From NCBI GenBank assembly GCA_013368515.1, contig JABWCI010000001.1, forward strand, positions 62,001 through 126,000: a stretch of DNA of 64,000 bases, given 5' to 3'. This document shows positions 11,138 through 62,925 of this stretch, piece after piece. This stretch comes from Candidatus Altimarinota bacterium (GTDB taxonomy: Bacteria; Patescibacteriota; Gracilibacteria; BD1-5; UBA6164). How positions within the stretch are numbered: position 1 is the first letter of the stretch; each line of letters begins with the position of its first letter. The position numbers and the translations under genes are program-made. The notes under the pieces were generated by a model. That model made no database searches, had not been told where the DNA came from, and saw nothing but the letters and a program-made list of their open reading frames with translations.

Positions 11138-13798
11138 ATGAGTGATCAAAATAAAAACATTAATGAAAAAGATTTATTAAACAATCTAGATATTAATGAT
11201 GGATCAGAAAAAATAAATAATGAAGATTTGATTTCAATGATTGACTTACCTGAAAGTAAAGAAATAGAAGAAATAAAAGAAAATTCTGATAGTAATATTT
11301 ATGATATAAATATTACTTCTTTAAAAGATATATTATTTCTAATTGTAGATAAAAAGTTTGATTTTGTTACTTTCGAACCTAGCGAAAATGAAGTAAGGTT
11401 AGATTTTAGAAAAAACAATGTAATAATTGAAACAAAATACATAAAATATCCTATTTATTCTTCTATATTACTAAAAGCAAAATGAATAACTAAATTAAAT
11501 TTAGAAGAAACAAATAAAGTTCAAGAATGAAACTGATGAATAAACATAGAAGAAAAAAATTTTGATATAATCACAAAAACTGTTCCGAGTAATTTCTGAG
11601 AAAAGTTATTCTTAAAAACTAGATTAATAGATAAATTAGTAGAAAAGAAAGAAACTAAAAAATTATCAAAATGACAAATATTATGATTTATAAGTATTAT
11701 ATTACTAATATGACTTATAGTAGGATGAAGCTTCTTATGATTCATAGTTTTAAATGCAAAAACAGTTGATGATGTTAGGTTCTTTGCTTGATTGTGAATA
11801 AATCTTAATGAAATAAATGCTTTCATTGCTCAATTAGTTACAATAATATTCTCAATTTTAGTCTTAATTGAGACAATTTTTCTTATAATATTTTTATTTA
11901 GATTTTTTCATACAAAAAAAGATCAAAAAAAGAAAAAGATAAAATTATGAATAATATCATTTATATTATTAATAATTACATTTATAACTGCTTCATTATG
12001 GATGATTATAGATCAAAAAATAAAGAATCTACCTAACTGGCAAGAAATGTCTTTTTGAGAAATACAAATTTATGATAACTCTAAATTAATAAATGAAAAC
12101 TTTTCTAAAGTAGGCTCACTTATAACTGATACTACAAATATAATCTGACCAATAGATATAAAATTTGATCTAACTTATTTAGCTCAATCTGAAGAAAAAA
12201 AATGAATTACAATAAAAAATTTTAATTGGGATTTCTGAAACTGAGACATAGAAGAAACAATAGTTCCAAATCTAATTAAAAAATTTGATAAAATTTGAAC
12301 TAACAATATAAAACTAACTATAAATTGAATTGATTCTCAATGAAAATCGATAGAAAAAATTATCGAAAATATACCTTACATAAATATATCTTATATAGTA
12401 GATATAGAAGAAAGAGTACTAAATAGTTGATGAAAATTAGTTGAATTTGATGCAAGTAGCATAAGTGAGTTATGAAATATAGAGTGGTATTTTATGGATA
12501 ATCTTACTGAGCCTGTATGGAAATGAAGCAAATACATAGTATGAAAACCTATATTTGAAGATACAATAATTTGAATGTACATAAAAAGAAATAATATAAA
12601 AGAAAATAGTAATTTTGATAAAATATTTGTTATAAAATGAGAAAATAAAGTAAATATTGATTGAGAAATTATATTTAAAAGATGAATAGTTGATGATTTA
12701 GAAGTTACATTTAATGTAGATAATCTTAAAAATGATATTTGAGCATGATTTATAGAAAAGTATATTTGGACTATATGAGAACAAAAATATACTAAATCAT
12801 GAGATATAGAAGATAGCTTAAAATCAAGTGAAGTTAAACATAAATTTATCTCATATTGAGATTATATAGTAAAAGTTGAGTTAATTAACTCTGCTTGAGA
12901 AAGTAAAATAATAACAAAAAATATATCTATACCAAAAATGTTAAAATTAAGTAAAGAGATAGATATATACTATGACTGAGAGTTAATAAAAAATCTAAAT
13001 TATAATAAAAATTTAAATGAATATTTTCTTGATTATATTGGTATTCCAAGTGATATAAAATTGGATTGAAGATATGTAAAAGCAGACTCAACTCTTTATA
13101 CTCTTAGTAAAATAGAATGGGACTATGATTCAGATTGAAATACTGATTTCACATGACTTACTTGAAATTATGCTTTAAATAAAGAATGAAACCATACAAT
13201 AACTGCAAAAATTCTTTTTACTAATAGAAAAATTGCAGATGATAAAGTTGAAATAAATGAAAAAATATTTATAGAAGCTGTAAAAAAAGATGCAATAGTT
13301 GATTTTGAAATACAATCATCAAGTGAATATGCGCCTGTTATTGTGTGATTTGATGCTTCAAGATCTCAAGTTAAAGATAGTAATATTACAAAATTTATAT
13401 GGGATTTTGGTGATTGAGTTACTGAAGAAAGAGATGCTGTAGTACCTTGAAGAAAATATAGCGAACCATGAGATTATAATATAAAACTAACAGTAGTAAC
13501 TACTGATTGAAAAAGCTACTCAAAATCTAAAAAACTGATTTTAAAACCTGTACCTCAAAGTATAGAAATAAAATCTAGCATGAAAAAGGCTCCTACAATG
13601 CAATGAATAGACTTTAGCTCAAGTAATTCAAATTGACAAATTAGTTCATATTTATGGGATTTTGGTGATTGAAATACTTCAAATGAAGCAAATCCAACGC
13701 ATCAATATAAAACATCATGAATATATAAAGTAAAACTAAGATTAGACTTTACAAATAAAAATATACTTGAAGATTATATTGAAATTGAAATATATTAA
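11138..13798 (+). CDS. Membrane protein with PilB-N2-like domain, three TM helices and PKD repeats
   Basis: 886 aa. The cytoplasmic N-terminus is acidic (1-55), then residues about 60-180 follow the pattern of the N2 domain of type II/IV secretion ATPases (T2SSE/PilB): FDFVTFEP, VRLDFRKNNVI, ITKLNLEET and FGEKLFLKTR line up with SDIHFEP, VRVRFRIDGVL, LDIAERRxPQ and GEKIVLRLL. There is no ATPase domain. Three membrane helices follow (about 200-300). The large external part has PKD beta-sandwich modules with the WDFG(D/N)G signature (near 365, 750 and 835) and further related modules between. The architecture suggests a cell-surface adhesin or sensor physically coupled to the type IV pilus machinery; that function is inference. 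Flanked by terminators, so monocistronic. Confidence 0.8.
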
Positions 13799-20672: not shown

Positions 20673-21086
20673 ATGCAATATAAAATCCCTGTCCAAATAG
20701 AAAATGAGGATCCTATACTCTTATGATTAAGTTTAAGGCAACTTGTTATTGTAATGATATGATTTTGAATATGATATTCAGTATTTAAATCATTAGCACC
20801 TATATGAACTGAGATAGCTGCAATACCTGCAATTACAATTGCAACAATATGAGTTATAATAGCTATTTTTAAATATAGTGAAATGACTTTTATACAATTT
20901 ATTTTGTCACTAATTAGAAAAATAATTAACTGAGAAAATAGAAAATGGGTAAAGTGAGTAGATAGTTACTCATTATTAGATATATGATTTATAACTGATC
21001 AAGAAAACAAAATTGACAACAAAATAGACTTCAATGACAAATTAAATAAAATAAAAGATATAGATGATAAATTAAACAAAATTTAA
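20673..21086 (+). CDS. PrgI family type IV secretion membrane protein
   Basis: 137 aa. MQYKIPVQIENEDPILLGLS followed by two membrane helices (LVIVMIGFGIGYSVF and AITIATIGVIIAIF) and a short charged tail match the PrgI layout of Gram-positive and CPR type IV secretion systems, where it stands in for VirB3-like channel components next to VirB4. Directly precedes a VirB4 N-terminal-like gene (18-bp gap) and a VirB2-like gene, supporting the call. Confidence 0.8.
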
Positions 21087-21817: not shown

Positions 21818-22174
21818 ATGAGATATATTTTTTTTACAATAATATGAATAATATCTAGTATAAAATTCTCTTTTGCTAATGAAAATGATATATGAATACT
21901 ATGATCATGAGTAAGTTCTTGAGATTTGAGAAATTGAGATATTCATATAGACGATATACCAAATATAATTAGATGAATGATAGATTTTGCAATGTGAATT
22001 GCATGAACAATAGCTATAATTTTTATAATATTTTGAGCGTATCAAATATTATTTTGATCTATTGAACAAGATAAATCTAAATGAAAAAATACAATAATAA
22101 TGGCCATTATATGATTTGCTATAGCAAGTTTGTCTTGGTTTATAATAAAAGTAATAATTGATAATCTAAGTTAA
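21818..22174 (+). CDS. VirB2/TrbC-like pilin (single unit)
   Basis: 118 aa: signal peptide (MRYIFFTIIGIISSIKFSFA), then two membrane helices, GMIDFAMGIAGTIAIIFIIFGAYQILFG and NTIIMAIIGFAIASLSWFIIKVI, joined by the polar turn SIEQDKSKGK. This is the VirB2/TrbC pilin layout. Starts 2 bp after the VirB4-N gene. The same two-helix unit recurs in the genes at 55.5, 56.5, 57.4 and 61.95 kb. Confidence 0.78.
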
Positions 22175-52552: not shown

Positions 52553-55417
52553 ATGAAAAAAATAGTTTTTATAATTGTATGATTATTTATTGACTTAAGC
52601 CAAACTTTTGCTTGAGTTTTATCAACAAGCTGAAATTCAATTAAAAATCCTCTAAAAAACTGAGAAGAAATCAGTAATTGAACTAACTGAAGTTGGTTTG
52701 ATATTAGTGAAGGTTGATTATTAAGTGATATAGCAAGTTGGGCAATAATAATTATATCGATTTACTTGTTATTTATATTAACAAAAAAAGCAATTCAACT
52801 TGCATTTGAAATATATTATGCAAAGAATTTAAGATACCTAAAAATAACATTGCCTAGAGCTGATTCAAAATTAGATAAAGAGAAAGAAACAAAAAAAGAC
52901 TTTAAAGAAAAAATAGGTACAATGAGTATGTTTTACAAAGCTATTCATAAATTAAGTGAAGCTTGACTAAGAGATACATTAATTAATAGTATTTTTTGAC
53001 ACTCTAAAATATCACTAGAACTTGTATATCAATGAGGAGAAGTAACTTTTTATATTGTTACTTATAAAACTTATGTTAATCTAATAAGTCAACATTTAAC
53101 ATCTACTTATAATGATGCAGAAATTATAGTAATTGATCCTAAGGAATGATTTTATGTAAATCTTGATGAAAGCTGATATCATAAAAGATGAGCTTCTTTA
53201 TGAAAAGAAAATGATGATGTATTTCCTATAAAAATATTTAAATATCTAGAAGATGACCCACTAAACAATTTTACAAATGTTTTTGGTTGACTTTCAAAAG
53301 ATGATAAAGCAGTTTTTCAACTTGTAATAAAACCAGAAAGTTCAAGATACAATAAAAAAGCCATAAGAGCCGCTTGATTAGTAGCAAAATGAAAATATAA
53401 AAAAGAAAAGAAGCATCTATTTTGATTTTTAAGTTTTTTATGGAATCCAATTGTTGCAATTGTACAATGACCTGATAGTATGGTTGCTTGAAATAATGCT
53501 CCTGGTGCAAGTGAATGAGATGCATATAAGATATTTAACCAAGCAGAAACTGAAAGTCAAAAGGTTATGTGAGAAACAGCAGCACAGCCTATGTTTAAAT
53601 CATCTATTAGAATACTTGTTTCTAGCAAAAATAAAAAAAATGCTGAAGAATGAGTACATGCAATAGTTGCTGCAGCATCAATGTATACAGATGAATACAA
53701 TAACGCTCTAGATAACCCTCAAATACTTGAAGATGCATTCCCTTGGTTTTTCACTCCTGCAAGACATTTTTGATTTAAATATAAATTGGTTTGATTTTTT
53801 CAAAATGTATCTTGGTTTTCAGCTGATGAAGTATCAACACTTTATCATATGCCTGATATAGTATACAACAAGTCTCCTATAATTAATTGGTTAGAATATA
53901 AAAAATTACCTCTTCCGCATAATATAAAGTTCCCTAAAGAAGCAACAATTTTAAAAGAAAAAGTTGAAAATTGAAAAGATGAAAATTGAAAAGCAAAATA
54001 TAAAGAAATATGAAAAGATGAAAATTGAAAAATAATATATGAAGAAATTGAAGTACATAGACAATTATGATGATTTCCAGTATTTAAAGATTGAGTTTTA
54101 CTTTGATGGAATGAGTATAGAAATAAAAAAATACCTGTATATTTTTCTAGAAAAGACAGAGGAAGACATCATTATATTATATGAAAGTCTTGAGGTTGAA
54201 AATCTGTTTTTATATGATATTTAGCTAGACAAGATGTCCGGAATGGAGACTGAGTTTGTGTCATAGATCCTCATTGAGACCTAGTTGAAGATGTATTAGC
54301 ATTTACTCCTAGAGAAAGGTTTAATGATGTAATAGTTTTCGACCCAAGTGATGATGAAAGACCAATGTGACTAAATATGCTTGAAGTTATTTCAACAGAT
54401 CCAGAAATAAGAAAAAGAGAAATGGACAGAGCTGCAATGGACGCAACTGAAATATTTATAAAAATTTTTGGTGATGAAATATTTTGACCAAGAATACAAC
54501 ATTATTTCAGAAATTGATGTTTGACACTTATGGAAGATGTCGAAGATGGGGGTACTCTAATAGATGTTCCTAGACTATTTGTCGATGATGCATTTATGAA
54601 ATATAAAGTATCAAAAGTAAAAAACCCTGTAGTTAAATCTTTTTGGGACCATGAATATGCAAATACTTGAGAAAGAGAAAAACAAGAAATGATTCCTTAT
54701 TTTTCAAGTAAATTTTGACCATTTATAACAAATACTACTATAAGAAATATTATTTGACAACCAAAATCTGCTTTTAATATAAGAGAGATTATGGACAATA
54801 GAAAAGTTCTATTAGTAAATTTGTCAAAAGGTAAAATATGAGCATTAAATGCTCAATTACTATGACTGATATTTGTATCTAAAGTAAATATGGCAGCTAT
54901 GAGTAGAGCTGACATTCCTGAAAATGAAAGAAAAGATTTTTATATGTATGTAGATGAGTTCCAAAACTTTGCAACTGAGACATTTTGAGAAATACTATCT
55001 GAGGCTAGAAAATATCACTTAGCACTTATAATGGCTCATCAATTTATTGCACAAATATGAGGTAATAGTTGACAAAAATGAGATAAACCTAGTATTAAAG
55101 ATGCAGTTTTTGGTAATGCTTGAACAATTATGAGCTTTAAAGTTGGTGCAGAAGATGCTGAGTATATGGAAAAAGAATATGCTCCTTTACTATCTCAACA
55201 AGATATTATATGAATTGCTAACTTCACCGCATATTGTAAACTTAATATAGACAATGCAACTACTAGACCTTTTGATTTAAAAACAATATGGGATAACAAA
55301 TATAAAAATCTTGAAATTGCAAAAAAATTAAAAGAGTTATCTAGAACAAAATATGGTAGAAAAAAGAAATATGTTGATATGGAAATTGAGGCTAGACTAT
55401 GAATTATGCCTGAATAA
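52553..55417 (+). CDS. VirD4/TraG-like type IV secretion ATPase
   Basis: 954 aa. Signal-like N-terminus then a membrane helix (SWAIIIISIYLLFILTKKAIQL). Residues 130-520 form a TraC/TraG-type accessory region with a Lys/Glu repeat (KENGKDENGK, near 500). The P-loop IIGKSGGGKS is residues 542-551; G544, G547 and G549 are TGA. Walker B region VCVIDPHGDLVEDVL, then VLLVNLSKGKIG, YMYVDEFQNFATETF and ARKYHLALIMAHQ (motifs of the AAA+/HerA coupling proteins). It couples substrates to a type IV secretion channel or, in CPR, may power a pilus. Followed by three pilin genes; no relaxase is present, so DNA conjugation is not implied. Confidence 0.87.
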
Positions 55418-55445
55418 AAAACAGAAATAAAAGCTCTGTTTTTTT
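55416..55445 (+). terminator. Terminator between VirD4-like and pilin genes
   Basis: AAAACAGA / TCTGTTTT stem and T7 run right after the VirD4-like stop; the 85-bp gap before the pilin gene presumably contains a new promoter. Confidence 0.7.
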
Positions 55446-55501
55446 GTTTTTTTTAATATATGTGATATTATAATATAGATTATATTTTTAAAATAAATTT
55501 C

Positions 55502-56470
55502 ATGAGAAAAATCTTTATTATAACTATTATTTTTATATTAAATATAATATTTTTTACAAATGTTACACATTCAAATCAAACAATTCCTAGTGCAAATAAT
55601 GTACAAATATGAAATAATGCTTGATGAAACTCTCTGACAAACAAATATTTAAACGATTTATGATGAAATTGAGATATAAATGCTTGATCAGATTGAGAAA
55701 AATCAATATATAACTTATTATTTACAATTGCAAAAGATTTAAAAACTATATTTTATATAATAGCATGACTATATTTTCTTATTTTAGTAATAAGATTATT
55801 ATTTTCCGAAAATACAGAAGAGGCTGCTACAAATTTCAAAAAATGAGTTTTGTGGATAACTCTATGAATACTATTAATGCAAATATCATTTTATGTTATA
55901 AATACACTATATGCGAAAGATGTATGATGAACATTGGCAAATAATTTAACAAAAAATTTAATAAACCCGGTAATAAGAATACTAGAAACTGCAGCATCGT
56001 TTTTCTTTATATTGATAGCAATATTTGCATTTTATACAATAATTACTGCTAATTGAGATGAAGAAAAAGTAAAAAAATGAAAAATGACAATTGTTTACTG
56101 ACTACTATGATTTATAATAATAAAACTAGCAAAAGAAATAGTATATGCAAGTTATTGAAGAATTGATTGTAGTGAGCGTACAATATTATGAATTTTTCAA
56201 ATAAATTGAAATAATTGTGCAACTGTAAACCAAATATCTTGAATTTCTGATATAATAATTAAAGTAATAAATTGGTTAAATTGATTTGTATGAATTGCTG
56301 TAATTTTAATGATAATTTACGCATGAGTTCAGGTTCTATTTTCAGCATGAGATGAAGAAAAATTAGCAAAAGCTAAAAAAGCAATAATATACATAATAAT
56401 ATGAATTGCTATATTAATTTTAAACTATTTCATATTAAGTTTCTTAATTAAGCCTGAAATTGTTATTTAA
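55502..56470 (+). CDS. Three-unit VirB2/TrbC-like pilin protein
   Basis: 322 aa. After a signal peptide (MRKIFIITIIFILNIIFF...) and a Gly/Asn-rich segment, three copies of a two-helix pilin unit follow: about 77-137 (GLYFLILVIRLLFSENTEEA, KKGVLWITLGILLM), 158-216 (FAFYTIITANGDEEKVKKGK) and 253-318 (IIYAGVQVLFSAGDEEKLAK). Each has hydrophobic helix, polar (S/T)xxGDEE(K) turn, K-rich start of the second helix. The C223/C239 pair lies in the linker between units 2 and 3. Ordinary VirB2 proteins have one unit. Probably a precursor processed into pilins or a covalent pilin chain; the choice cannot be made from sequence. Confidence 0.8.
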
Positions 56471-56484
56471 ATAAAAATAAATAT

Positions 56485-57387
56485 ATGAATATAATAAAAA
56501 AGATAACTATATTAATAATATTATCATTAGCTATAATTGGGTCAAATAAAGTTATTGCCTCAAATATAGAATGATTAGAAAATATAACTAATAAAAATTC
56601 AATAGAATTATCATGAACTAGTAATGACATATCAGATTCAGTAGCAAATATTTCTTTTAATATATTAAACAAAATAAAATATATATTCTCTTGAATTTTA
56701 TTAATATTTATTGTTTATGCATGAGCACAAATGGTAATGTCAATGTGAACTGATGATGAAGCTCTATCTAAATCAAAAAGATCTTTATGGTATGCGTGAA
56801 TATGATTATTTTTTATAAACATGCCTTGAACAATTTACAATGCTGTTAAATGAGATAAAACAAATATAAGTTGATGAATATGAAGCTCTTGGTCAAATGA
56901 AATAAATAGTACAACAACAAATTTATTTATTAATACTGATATATTTAGTCTAACTTTAAATAACACAGTTATAAAATTTCTTGAAATAATTATTGTATGA
57001 ATAGCTATAATAATAATAATAGTTTCTTGATTAAAAATGATAATGTCTAGATGAAGAGAAGAAAATGTTAGTGAAGCTAAAAATAAAATCATATGGGCAA
57101 TAATATGATTAATATTTGTGGGATTTATTGAAGCATGGCAAAAATTTGCTTATTCATGAAAAATAAATGATTGAAAAAATATATTTGAAACTATTGCAAA
57201 TTTAGCTTTATTCTTAGCTTGACCTATAGCAATATTCTTTCTAACACTTGCTTGATACTACTATATAACATCTGCTTGAGATGAAGAAAGAGCTAAAAAA
57301 TGAAAAACTATTATAATAAATACTGTATTAGCAACAGCAATTTTACTAGTTTCCTATGTGTTTTTATATGATTTAATGTCTTTATAA
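56485..57387 (+). CDS. Second three-unit VirB2/TrbC-like pilin protein
   Basis: 300 aa, signal peptide MNIIKKITILIILSLAIIGS. Three pilin units: about 60-118 (IVYAGAQMVMSMGTDDEALS), 162-222 (VSGLKMIMSRGREENVSEAK) and 238-298 (LAGYYYITSAGDEERAKKGK). Linkers are Ser/Thr/Asn-rich and predicted flexible. Similar in build to the preceding gene but divergent in sequence, so an old duplication. Starts 14 bp after it. Confidence 0.8.
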
Positions 57388-57388
57388 A

Positions 57389-57829
57389 ATGAAAAAAAAA
57401 TTATTAATTATAATAACAGCTTTATGTTTAATATTACAAATATGAATTACTAATGCTGAAGATGCTGTTACAATTAGAACAACAGAAAAAATACCATGAG
57501 TAGAATGTAATCTTATACCTGTACCAGCTGATAAAATAGATGCTGTATGAGCCCCATATTATCCAAATTTATATGATTGTAAGGTGGAAAAATGAGTATG
57601 ACAAATAGTTAGTATGTTATGAAATATTATAAAATATTTTACATATATAGCTTTATTATCATGAGTATTATTTATAGTATACAATGGTATATTGTATAGT
57701 ATGTGATGAGCAGATCAATCATTAAAAGATGATTCTAAAAAAAGAATAATCTGAACTTTAATATGATTAATATTATTATTATTAAGCTGACCAATTTTAC
57801 AACTAATCGCCCCATGGATATATAAATAA
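57389..57829 (+). CDS. Single-unit VirB2/TrbC-like protein
   Basis: 146 aa. Signal peptide (MKKKLLIIITALCLILQIGITNA), a Pro/Cys-containing segment with C40 (VECNLIPVP) and C64 (LYDCKVEKG), then one pilin unit (VLFIVYNGILYSMGGADQSL, KKRIIGTLIGLILLLLSGPI). The ATG overlaps the region just after the previous stop by one base gap. The extra cysteines could cap or link the fibre; inference only. Confidence 0.78.
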
Positions 57830-57874: not shown

Positions 57875-57949
57875 TGGTTGCGGAGATAGGAATTGAACCT
57901 ATGGTCTTCGGGTTATGAGCCCGACGAGATACCACTTCTCCACTCCGCG
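57875..57949 (-). tRNA. Initiator tRNA-fMet (CAU)
   Basis: 75 nt with encoded CCA. Initiator hallmarks are present: unpaired C1-A72 and three G-C pairs (GGG/CCC) next to the CTCATAA anticodon loop. Confidence 0.96.
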
Positions 57950-57973
57950 ATAAAAAAAATAACAATAAGTTTT

Positions 57974-58048
57974 TGGTACGGCTACGGAGAATCGAACTCC
58001 GGTTACCGGGATGAAAACCCGATGTCCTAACCACTAGACGATAGCCGC
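57974..58048 (-). tRNA. tRNA-Glu (UUC)
   Basis: 75 nt with encoded CCA; anticodon loop TTTTCAT, acceptor GCGGCTA/TAGCCGT with a G-U first pair. Confidence 0.95.
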
Positions 58049-58069: not shown

Positions 58070-58121
58070 ATTATATACAAAAAAAAAATTAGTCAAATGT
58101 TTTTTTGACTAATTTTTTTAT
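58070..58121. promoter_or_regulatory. tRNA promoter nested in the cyclase terminator
   Basis: A 15-bp perfect stem (58083-58097 with 58104-58118) ends the cyclase gene on the minus strand. The same DNA supplies TTGACT (58091-58096) and, 15 bp on, TATAAT (58070-58075) for the tRNA-Glu/fMet pair. Terminator and promoter are thus physically overlapped. Confidence 0.72.
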
Positions 58122-60241
58122 TATTTACTTTTCATCTCAGAAACACCATCCCAATCAGAATTTGGTGGATTATTTATATAATAATCAGACATTTCTAAAT
58201 AAAATTTACTTGGATTATCTCATAAAGTAATTAATTTTGAAAAAATATCTTTTGCTTCATCAAATTTTCTAAGATTATATAAACTAACAGCCTCTTCAAA
58301 CTTAATTTTTATTTCATATAAACTATCAGATATTTGTCATTTAAAGCCTAATAATTCATAAATTTTTATAGGTTTATTTTTTCATTTTACTCTTATTTTA
58401 TCCAAATATCTAAATTCAAAATCATTTCTTACTTCTTCATAAATATTTTCACTAACACATATATATGTACCATAAAATTTATTTACTCACTCTAAACGAG
58501 AAGCAAGATTTACACTATCTCATAAAGCTGTATATTCCATTTTTCTTCAACTAGAACCTATATTTCAAACTATAGCTTCTCAAGAGTGTAATCAAATTCT
58601 AACTTTAATAGTTGAAAATCATCTTTTTCACCATATTTTATTTAATTCTAATAATTTCTCTTGTTGTTTTAAAGCTGAAAGACAAGAATAATACGATGAA
58701 TTTTCATATGGTGTAAATGCTCACCAAAGAGCCATTATAGCATCTCATTCATATTTATTTATAAATCAATTAGAATCCATAATAATATCTGACATAACTG
58801 ATAAATACTCTCTTAGAAAAGAAACTAAATCTTCAGGTTCAAACTTCTCTGAAATAGTGGTAAATCATTCAATATCTGAAAAATATATTGATAATTTCTT
58901 TCTCTCACCATCAAGATTAATTTTTCAAGAGTTAGATAAAACTTCTTCTGCAATAGCCTTAGAAACATATTCTGATAAAGCTTTATTTAACTTTAATTTA
59001 TTCTTATTTTCAACTAAATATTTAATGGTATTTGAAATTGTTAAAGACAATATCAAAGAAAAGAAAAGCTCAAAAAGATAATTTAAAAGATACGATGTAA
59101 ATATAAGAATAAATATAGGAAAAATCACTAAAAATATTGCTGTAATTGACAAGTTACTAAAAACTAATACATACCCTGAACGAGATAAATTAGAGTAAAC
59201 TGAAAGTAAAATCAAAGTAAATATCAATAATAATTCTAAATTATTATCTAAATATAATAAATAATTTTTTGTCATTATTGTATTTATTATATTTGCTAAA
59301 ACATAAACTCAATACTCTGAACCATTTGGGGTATTAAAAATATCTTTTAATCATTTAGCTGTTGCTCATATTAAAACAATTTTTCATTTAAATGCTGATG
59401 GATCAAAATTTCATTCATAGATATCTATAAATGAATATGATGGAAATTTTGAGTACTTATTTTCACTAAAAGAAGGAAGTGGAACAAAATTTATTAATAT
59501 ATCCTTATGTCATGACAATAAAAAAGGAATCTTATAATCAGGTCTTAAATAATAGAAATCATTGTCTTTATTTTCATAGCTAATAAAATCTTTATTATAT
59601 ATTTTAGAGTAGTAAGATTTTAATACAGATATACTAAAGTGATTATACGTAAATAAATCTTTATTTATATCATATAGTTCCGCTGAAGGTCTAAAACTTG
59701 TTACTATATTTGATTTCAAATCTACATTTGGTTGATAATATCAAAATGATAATGCTCAAGATAGAAATTTATCTAGTGGTTTCTCAATTATTTGCAAAGT
59801 TTCTCAACTTTCAAATTTTTTAGAAATTAAAGCTCATCATAAAACCACATTTCATGCATTTTTTATAGATTCTGAAAGAATATTGTCTCACTCTATATCA
59901 AGGTTATTATTATTTGCAAATATTATATCAAATGCAATTATACTTGCTCATGCAGAATTTAGATTTTCAATGATTGGTTTATATTCTCTCCTAGATATAG
60001 GAAATCAAAGTTTATCTAAAGATTTTTCATCAAATGTTAAAACAACTATATCATCATTTATTAAATTATTTACTTTTGCACTATCAGATAAATATATATG
60101 ATTTTTTTTATTTATAATATAAGACTTTAATTTTTCATTTATTATATAAAATGGTCATCTAAACAATAAAATCAAAAAGAATATAAATGATGATATAAAT
60201 ATAGTTAAAAAAATTCTATTTTGGAAGATTTTTGAATTCAA
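58121..60241 (-). CDS. CHASE2-domain class III adenylate/guanylate cyclase
   Basis: 706 aa, TTG start chosen because no ATG lies before the first helix and it follows the FecR stop by 10 bp. One N-terminal helix, an external CHASE2 sensor (about 40-330: DDIVVLTFDEKSLDKLG, FDIIFANNN, GKIVLIGATAKGL), two or three membrane helices (about 345-430), then a cyclase domain (about 460-640). Catalytic features: LSIYFSDIEGFTTISEKF (metal Asp), GDAIMALWGA, VRIGLHSGEAIVGNIGSS and TALGDSVNLASRLE. The C-terminus has a short helical tail. It should make cAMP or cGMP in response to an external signal; no cyclic nucleotide effector is in the window. Confidence 0.9.
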
Positions 60242-60251
60242 AATTATATAG

Positions 60252-61448
60252 TTATTTAATAAAATTATTAATTTCTGTTTCTAAAGTATCTCTAATGGCA
60301 CTATCAACTTCGTTAAATTTATTAAGTATATTATCCTTATCTAGATTAAAATTCGAATTTATAGTTGATTTAAATGTATTTATATTACTTATAAAAGAGT
60401 CTTTTATATTGTCTCAAAGATTTATTTTATTTATATACAAAAATAAATCTTCTTTTACATCTAATAAAGTAGAATTAGAATTAATAAATATTAATATATT
60501 ATTAAGAGAATCATAGCTTTTTGTATTAATTGAATCTTTAAGATCAAAAACGAAACTTTCCATTAATAATTTTTGATTTCATAATGTAGAAACAGAAAAC
60601 AATTTTTCTTTTAATTTTAATTTTAAATCAAATAATTCTTTATCATCACTAGACTTTATAAAATTTATATCTTGATAATAAGAGATAATTTCAGAATAAT
60701 ACAATTCCTTTTCTTTTAAAGATAATTTATCTATTTCAGATGAGCTAATAGAAATTAAATTATTTATTTTTGATTCTAGTTCTTTTTTAAGTTTATCTAT
60801 ATACTCTCTATCAAATCTCCTATTTAGTTCATCAAAAGCTGAATCTCTAATATTTCTGATAAATTCATCTAATTGAATAAAAGAAAACGTACTAATTTTT
60901 AAAGGCTTTTTTTCTTCAATAGTTATAACTTCTCAAGATGAATCTTTATAATCCACTTTATGGTCAACTACATATAAATAATCGTTATCTATATCCACAT
61001 TAAAAGTTGTTCATCTAACAGCAGCTTCTCTATCCATAAAAGACTGTTTAAAATATGAATCCTCTCATATATAGCTTATTACATTTGACCATGATTTTCA
61101 TTTAAATAACTCAAATGATATATTTAACTTGTCTTTATTATTAGAAACATAAAGCTCATTAACTTTTAAAGATGAATTTCATCATAGTCTTGTAACACTT
61201 CAGTCTCACCACTCAATAATAGCCATTGAATTATCTCAGACTGTTTTAACTAAATCATTTATATTAAGTTTATTCTTATCATTTTTAACTAAAAAAATAT
61301 CATTTATGTATCATTCTCAATTAATTAATTCTACATAACTATTTCTATCAACACTTTTTTTGAATAAAGATATATAAACTGAAAATCAAATTATAAAAAC
61401 AATTAAAATCAATATAAAATATAAAAATTTATTTTCTATTTTTTTCAT
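60252..61448 (-). CDS. FecR-domain membrane-anchored protein
   Basis: 398 aa. One N-terminal helix (FLYFILILIVFIIGFSVYI), external FecR domain (AIIEWGDGSVTRLGGNSSLK ... AAVRGTTFNVDI), then a long coiled-coil region (about 190-398). The FecR fold senses or scaffolds signals at the cell surface. FecR and CHASE2 cyclase genes often travel together in other bacteria; here they are 10 bp apart, so they likely form one sensory complex. The coiled coil may reach across the periplasm or along the surface. Confidence 0.82.
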
Positions 61449-61513
61449 TATAAGTATTATAAGAGAGTAAACATAAATATATATTACAGAAAAATTTTTA
61501 AAACTCAAAAAAT

Positions 61514-61927: not shown

Positions 61928-61956
61928 AAAGAGAGCAAATGCTCTCTTTTTATAAA
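61921..61956. terminator. Bidirectional terminator
   Basis: Perfect 17-bp stem TTTATAAAAAGAGAGCA / TGCTCTCTTTTTATAAA; the TAA stops of both convergent genes are inside its arms. Confidence 0.88.
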
Positions 61957-62375
61957 TCTGAAAAATCAGAAGGAAGTTCATCAATAGTATTTATATTAAT
62001 AGTTGATGAAGTTGATGTTCAAAATAATTTATTTCATATTTCTTCAATTTTTTCGAAAATTCTTTTAGGTTCAGCGTATTTTTCTACATCAAGTCATAGT
62101 AATCTACCTAGAACTGGAAATATAAAAATAGTAAATACAGTAACTATTATACCTATAACAGCATATCTAATAGTATTAATTGCTGGCTTAATCTTTTCAT
62201 CTTTTCCTCCAGACAATATTAAAAGTAGACCTCACCATAAAATAAATAAAATTGAAAATATTCAAGCAAATAAAACAAAAATTGATATAGTTAATAATAC
62301 AAAATCTCAAAATTCCATATTATCTCAAAATAGTCATACTCATGTTTCAATAGCATATGCAGTCTCAATTACCAT
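61950..62375 (-). CDS. VirB2/TrbC-like pilin (single unit)
   Basis: 141 aa. One pilin-like unit: VLLTISIFVLFAGIFSILFILWGGLLLILS, turn GGKDEKIK, second helix IRYAVIGIIVTVFTIFIFPVLG, then a charged tail (FEKIEEIGNKLFG) ending in a Ser/Thr-rich linker. No classical signal peptide, though an AYA site at the N-terminus is possible. Upstream of khpA on the opposite side of the ribosomal genes; a dispersed member of the same family as the 52-58 kb genes. Confidence 0.72.
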
Positions 62376-62391
62376 AAAATTATGTTAAAAA

Positions 62392-62628
62392 TTAATCTAA
62401 AACTTTTAAATTTATTCTTTTATTTGTTTTAACTCAATACAATCTAAGCAATGATCTAATTGAATTAATGTTATTTCAAGCTTTTCAAATAATACTTCAC
62501 ATATCTTCTTTGTCAACAGATAATGTTAAAAGAGTACCTAGTTCATCTTCAACTTTATCAATTTTTATAGCTGTTTTATTAGAAACTATATTTTCAACTA
62601 TAAAATGTAAAAAATTTACTTCATTCAT
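62392..62628 (-). CDS. khpA: KhpA RNA-binding KH domain protein
   Basis: 78 aa. One KH domain with the GxxG loop in GSIIGKAGNNINSIR. Length and location after rpsP are typical of KhpA (YlqC), which with KhpB binds many transcripts and influences cell shape. Both GxxG glycine positions use TGA/GGN mix. Confidence 0.9.
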
Positions 62629-62685
62629 AAATTATTAATCTAAAAAAATAATATCCTTCAATTAAATTATATTGAAGGATTTTAA

Positions 62686-62925
62686 TTATAAAGAAACATT
62701 ATTAGTTTTCATTAATTTTTCAACTCTTGGTGAGAATTGAACTCCATGAGAAACATAAGTTTTTACTTTATCTAAATCTTTGATTTTAAATTCTTTAGAT
62801 ATTGGATTATAAAATCCTAAAATTTCTTTGTAACCATGCTTAGCAGCAGCAGTATGTTCAGTTAATACAACTCTAAAGAAAGGCATATTTCTTTTTCAAG
62901 CTCTAGATAATCTTATTTTTAACAT
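62686..62925 (-). CDS. rpsP: Ribosomal protein bS16
   Basis: 79 aa. MLKIRLSRAGKRNMPFFRVV is diagnostic; the correct start gives this N-terminus and includes a TGA-Gly codon at residue 10. Assembly protein of the 30S subunit. rpsP-khpA order is conserved across bacteria. Confidence 0.95.

Follow-up and report, generated by a model that had tools for sequence, protein, structure and literature searches.

Paired proteins with three concatenated T4SS-pilin units each, encoded behind a VirD4-like ATPase in Gracilibacteria

Pilins of the VirB2, TraA and TrhA type are encoded as single units, each forming a two-helix hairpin with a basic turn, and covalent modification of a conjugation pilin has been described for TrhA, which is cyclised (PMC11722321). 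A single unit is also the rule in the families PF18895 (T4SS_pilin) and NF045849, the Mbov_0395 pilin-like conjugal transfer proteins. For the Patescibacteria, PMC12102498 describes VirB2-like arrays of 2-11 separate genes, for which PF18895 was used. CedA and VirB6, polytopic membrane proteins of the type IV secretion system (T4SS) with a pilin-like hairpin (6-7 transmembrane helices in CedA), have been reported to be homologous to pilins (PMC9905601). PMC12102498 and PMC12857230 report that host-dependent growth requires a T4SS in the only Patescibacteria species in which this has been tested. Little is understood of the pilins and VirB6 of Patescibacteria T4SS, and least in Gracilibacteria.

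The DNA stretch analysed here, called the window, is 64,000 nucleotides long; a CPR origin had been presumed for it and was borne out, the DNA being from Gracilibacteria, and the named relatives retrieved via its VirD4 gene were Candidatus Gracilibacteria. Read with genetic code table 11, all genes of the operon studied are interrupted by TGA, and with table 25 (TGA=Gly) they are intact. In this code, a tight operon virD4-A-B-C occupies positions 52553-57829, with intergenic gaps of 84, 14 and 1 bases in that order (Table 1). The span that had first drawn attention, 55502-57829, equals A, B and C exactly and lies directly behind the VirD4-like gene. An in-frame ATG at 55460 would lengthen A by 14 residues; because the orthologues have a TAA between this ATG and 55502, the latter, already the start in the original prediction, is the correct one. 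Right behind C, on the opposite strand, lie genes for tRNA-Met and tRNA-Glu (57875-58048, -), and beyond them a gene for a CHASE2-adenylate/guanylate cyclase adjoins one for a FecR-domain protein (58121-61508, -).

Table 1. Coordinates of the features in the window and the matches that characterise them. Own HMM, profile built from the units; Pfam alone, PF18895 match of the unit scanned singly.
Feature	Position	Strand	Evidence
VirD4-like T4SS coupling ATPase, first operon gene	52553..55417	+	T4SS-DNA_transf PF02534 8.3e-12; TrwB_AAD_bind 6.4e-7
Gene A, 322 aa: hydrophobic signal-like N-terminus and three pilin hairpins	55502..56470	+	PF18895 1.2e-15, 3 stretches; AlphaFold2 three hairpins
Unit A1	55709..55909	+	own HMM 5e-20; Pfam alone 1.5e-3
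Unit A2	55952..56152	+	own HMM 7e-24; Pfam alone 1.2e-6
A2-A3 linker with Cys pair (C223, C239 of A)	56168..56218	+	both columns at least 90% conserved
Unit A3	56246..56446	+	own HMM 5e-23; Pfam alone 1.3e-10
Gene B, 300 aa: hydrophobic signal-like N-terminus and three pilin hairpins	56485..57387	+	PF18895 2e-20, 3 stretches; AlphaFold2 three hairpins
Unit B1	56644..56847	+	own HMM 6e-22; Pfam alone 6.7e-7
Unit B2	56950..57150	+	own HMM 2e-21; Pfam alone 1.2e-10
Unit B3	57175..57375	+	own HMM 1e-23; Pfam alone 8.6e-8
Gene C, 146 aa: one pilin unit and Cys-containing N-terminal segment	57389..57829	+	PF18895 2.2e-6; behind B in almost every complete locus of the order
PrgI/VirB3-like gene near D	20673-21086		PrgI PF12666 5.3e-12
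Gene D, pilin with one unit, two genes behind the PrgI/VirB3-like gene	21818..22174	+	PF18895 2.7e-12
Gene E, single-unit pilin	61950..62375	-	PF18895 4.1e-6

A Pfam scan found three PF18895 stretches in A, three in B and one each in C, D and E, which agrees with the predicted three units in each of two proteins and one in a third. With 57.7, 73.1 and 28.1 bits, respectively, A, B and C all exceed the curated cut-off of 26.6. When the six A/B units were scanned singly, PF18895 was the top Pfam match for each (1.5e-3 to 1.2e-10) and five exceeded the cut-off alone; A1 lies below it (19 bits, 1.5e-3), and its orthologue at locus L072, also scanned alone, reaches 26.0 bits (1e-5). An HMM built from the units matched only A-E among the 139 window ORFs of at least 60 aa. 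The original prediction had assigned the units to the VirB2/TrbC pilin type. Membership in a pilin family holds, through PF18895, but the TrbC/VirB2 family PF04956 itself stays under its cut-off of 27.9 bits (B 19.4, C 16.4, A not among the matches listed); PF04956 is the wrong search family for this genome, and PF18895 fits. The profile check also indicates that the helix pairs do not come from unrelated transporters. Weak matches to MatE and other membrane families could suggest that A and B are ordinary six-helix transporters, pilin-like through chance hydrophobicity, an explanation that we consider practically negligible given the rank of PF18895 for every unit, its matches to all orthologues tested (A 32/32, B 26/26, 58/58 together) and the lack of any unit-HMM match among the reversed window ORF sequences used as a control. 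The A/B units match most of the length of the PF18895/NF045849 families and have the hairpin, the turn signature and the linkage to T4SS genes in common with them, but A and B hold a fixed number of three position-specific units in each polypeptide; the two-helix hairpin with basic turn is likewise common to VirB2/TraA/TrhA and the A/B units, in contrast to the three hairpins per encoded chain.

To follow the proteins through the order, related loci were collected via an alignment of VirD4. A matches were found in 60/60 relatives, with one strong copy each and E at or below 1e-40 in 55, the remaining five giving partial matches only. The arrangement A(3)-B(3)-C(1), with units per protein in brackets, is kept in nearly every complete locus of the window's own family; two further families of the order have A beside virD4 but B, usually followed by C, at another place. 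B is present in 16/16 genomes of these two families, as one strong copy in 15 and in two pieces in the 16th. Exactly three units occur in A and in B throughout the order, and practically all homologues share the motif. Similarity between units is 40-67 within one position versus 4-27 between positions, and in 204/204 cases the closest relative of an A/B unit in another genome occupies the same position. A and B are colinear across all three units (hhalign 99.8%). As judged from their sequences, A and B are paralogous, concatenated proteins of the T4SS pilin family, and their units are not interchangeable.

Hydropathy profiles of A and B show an N-terminal hydrophobic stretch and then three transmembrane-like helix pairs, the second helix of unit 1 in B falling under the threshold used. 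AlphaFold2 models contain three helical hairpins in each protein at the predicted places, with pTM values of 0.42 (A) and 0.41 (B), at which the packing of the hairpins against each other is not reliable. A Foldseek search with these models found no solved relative, and a sequence search for solved structures returned nothing meaningful. Since the basic residues of the units are concentrated in the hairpin turns, the positive-inside rule would place the turns in the cytosol; hydropathy and charge alone suggest a topology with the acidic/basic turns cytosolic and the linkers and N-terminal segment outside.

A Cys pair had been noticed in one linker; it is located between A2 and A3, where at least two Cys are found in 36/38 orthologues. 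For the chains as a whole, both covalent triplets and polyprotein precursors had been considered, and of these only the former stood. The units are full-length hairpins, and in the topology suggested above the second helices would end outside, where signal peptidase could in principle cut; nevertheless, it is very improbable that A and B are precursors cut into single pilins after export, because the linkers are short and conserved in length (14-26 residues for A1-A2, 9-18 for B2-B3), no conserved small-x-small (signal-peptidase) motif was seen behind the helices when the alignments were judged by eye, and the units are position-specific. The linker lengths and the lack of a conserved cleavage motif point to covalent concatemers that are probably not cut into single pilins. 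We found no description of fused or tandem pilin proteins in the searchable open-access literature, nor does the accessible part of PMC12102498, in which the units of the arrays are separate genes, mention fused ones. A/B and these arrays have the pilin family, the phylum and the presence of multiple diverged pilins per locus in common, and the concatemers seem undescribed in the searchable open-access literature, absence from which is not proof.

We then considered the wider class. The A profile matched 136/145 class genomes at or below 1e-12, some via one unit only. Among loci from 20 class genomes, 14 contain adjacent protein pairs with exactly three units each (28/28 proteins), and the four loci of the recoded sister family f13 contain one A-like protein each, three units being recognised in two of these proteins and two units passing the threshold in the others. 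Pairs from other orders lean B-then-A by HMM score in 10 of 14 cases; their orthology with A and B is not claimed, since the tree gives no resolution. Behind the pair, five of the 14 loci (L153, L157, L162, L167 and L169) encode a long protein that carries a single pilin unit; at L167 one gene lies in between, and L169 is cut by the contig end. Where read at length, these proteins comprise 1082-1595 aa with PKD-like repeats (Pfam-tested for L167).

Outside the class, a sample of 193 genomes gave no full three-unit match. Two-unit proteins were found there in single-pilin arrays (L171, L172, L173 and L175), and a four-unit protein of 414 aa (5.3e-28) lies in a pilin array at L176, 1295-2536 (-). 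That known VirB2 pilins are single units, as the original prediction had it, agrees with the literature, but the two- and four-unit forms show that this does not extend to the whole phylum: concatenation is a repeated theme of Patescibacteria pilins, and the three-plus-three pair is its Gracilibacteria version. At L178 (1368-6001) and L179 (3212-8001), two long neighbouring proteins both carry one pilin unit at the N-terminus; the open frame of the second extends over 14,266 aa (genome G261) or 3,471 aa (G337). A plasmid search gave no match, and in a viral contig search patterns matched and no relative was confirmed.

The proposed link to a T4SS ATPase was found at two kinds of loci. A adjoins virD4 in most genomes of the order, as in the window, where virD4 is directly upstream, and in f13 the gene order is VirB4 - membrane protein - A, with all three f13 VirB4s tested over the NF045971 cut-off. 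A is assigned to the T4SS because of these two positions, beside virD4 and two genes after virB4. The f13 protein between VirB4 and A is a conserved membrane protein of about 314-345 aa without a known family (L154, L159, L163, L164). The three-unit pairs of other orders in the class lie beside neither virD4 nor virB4, and a single VirB4-like match was obtained from the window's own genome, on another contig; the loci are in agreement with the dispersed T4SS genes reported for Gracilibacteria (PMC12102498).

The reading that we favour, with a probability somewhat below one half (about 0.45), is that the A/B pair, as uncut paralogous concatemers, together with C or a PKD-stalk protein forms a fixed-stoichiometry membrane platform or pilus base. 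Each protein would probably be exported through Sec via one N-terminal signal sequence and would insert three hairpins into the membrane. Paired with each other, the two would act together with C, which has one unit, or with the one-unit PKD-stalk protein of other orders, and would most likely serve the VirD4/VirB4 ATPases as part of the Patescibacteria T4SS, while variable single-unit pilins from separate arrays would supply any fibre. That A and B are single-copy and the single pilins are encoded separately suggests this division, and a base or platform role appears at least as likely as a fibre role.

The bodies of known conjugation pili consist of one small pilin, repeated, whereas A and B are one gene each per genome, their units are strictly position-specific and separate single-pilin arrays exist in the genome. 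On these grounds we think it unlikely that A and B are the main filament blocks, polymerising as covalent triplets into an unusual pilus, even though their units keep the helix-turn-helix with its basic turn, two-helix pilins of this kind make up the conjugation pili of bacteria and archaea (PMC9905601), and in some orders a PKD surface protein that includes one pilin unit comes after the pair.

A and B could also be a channel or platform standing in for VirB6/CedA, made by tripling the pilin hairpin. They have six transmembrane helices, as in VirB6/CedA, the N-terminus of CedA is homologous to the CedA1 pilin (PMC9905601), VirB6 is reported absent in Gracilibacteria (PMC12102498), and PF04610 matches neither the window's own genome (none at E up to 10) nor 19 genomes sampled from the order. 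Nevertheless, this explanation is doubtful. In family f12, a VirB6-like protein that exceeds the cut-off occurs in the same genomes as the triple-pilin pair, and the pair is therefore not a simple VirB6 replacement; each of the three hairpins of A and B can be recognised as a pilin unit, and there is no match to PF04610 (none at E up to 1) or to the VirB6-like proteins of the class, the A profile scoring 0.1% against the f12 VirB6-like profile by hhalign with a template of only 3 sequences. The f12 profile gave no match in 24 relatives, which says little, and the VirB6 of the order may be too divergent for detection.

A and B bear on the question, raised in PMC9905601 and unresolved, of how VirB2 pilins and VirB6/CedA channels are related. 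It is conceivable, if rather improbable, that pilin hairpins fused three-plus-three form a permanent T4SS platform and represent a living VirB2-to-VirB6/CedA intermediate, in which the six A/B hairpins might correspond to the six subunits of the hexameric ATPases and C or the PKD stalk would add a seventh unit; if true, this would give a direction to that relationship, namely which evolved from which. A class-wide fused pair of three-unit proteins fixes subunit stoichiometry genetically and offers a handle on pilin assembly, and the fixed three-plus-three number suggests a dedicated part of the machine by which these tiny bacteria may contact hosts.

The further single copies that had been placed at 21.8 and 61.95 kb are D and E, both PF18895 proteins, and at least 7 more single units are encoded in the genome outside the window, including a run of four and a run of two on contig 18. 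E lies directly behind genes for a KH-domain protein and an apparent ribosomal protein S16 on one strand (window 61950-62925, -). On contig 22 of the same genome (L180, 2181-2594, -), a single-unit T4SS pilin is found beside PilC- and PilN/PilO-like type IV pilus genes. Finally, an 886-aa protein encoded at window positions 11138-13798 (+) has a cytosolic N-domain with a weak T2SSE/GspE-like match (1.5e-4), a transmembrane segment, a degenerate pilin-like hairpin (PF18895 7e-4) and PKD domains (2.9e-37), an unusual combination of parts that resemble a type IV pilus ATPase, a T4SS pilin and a surface stalk.
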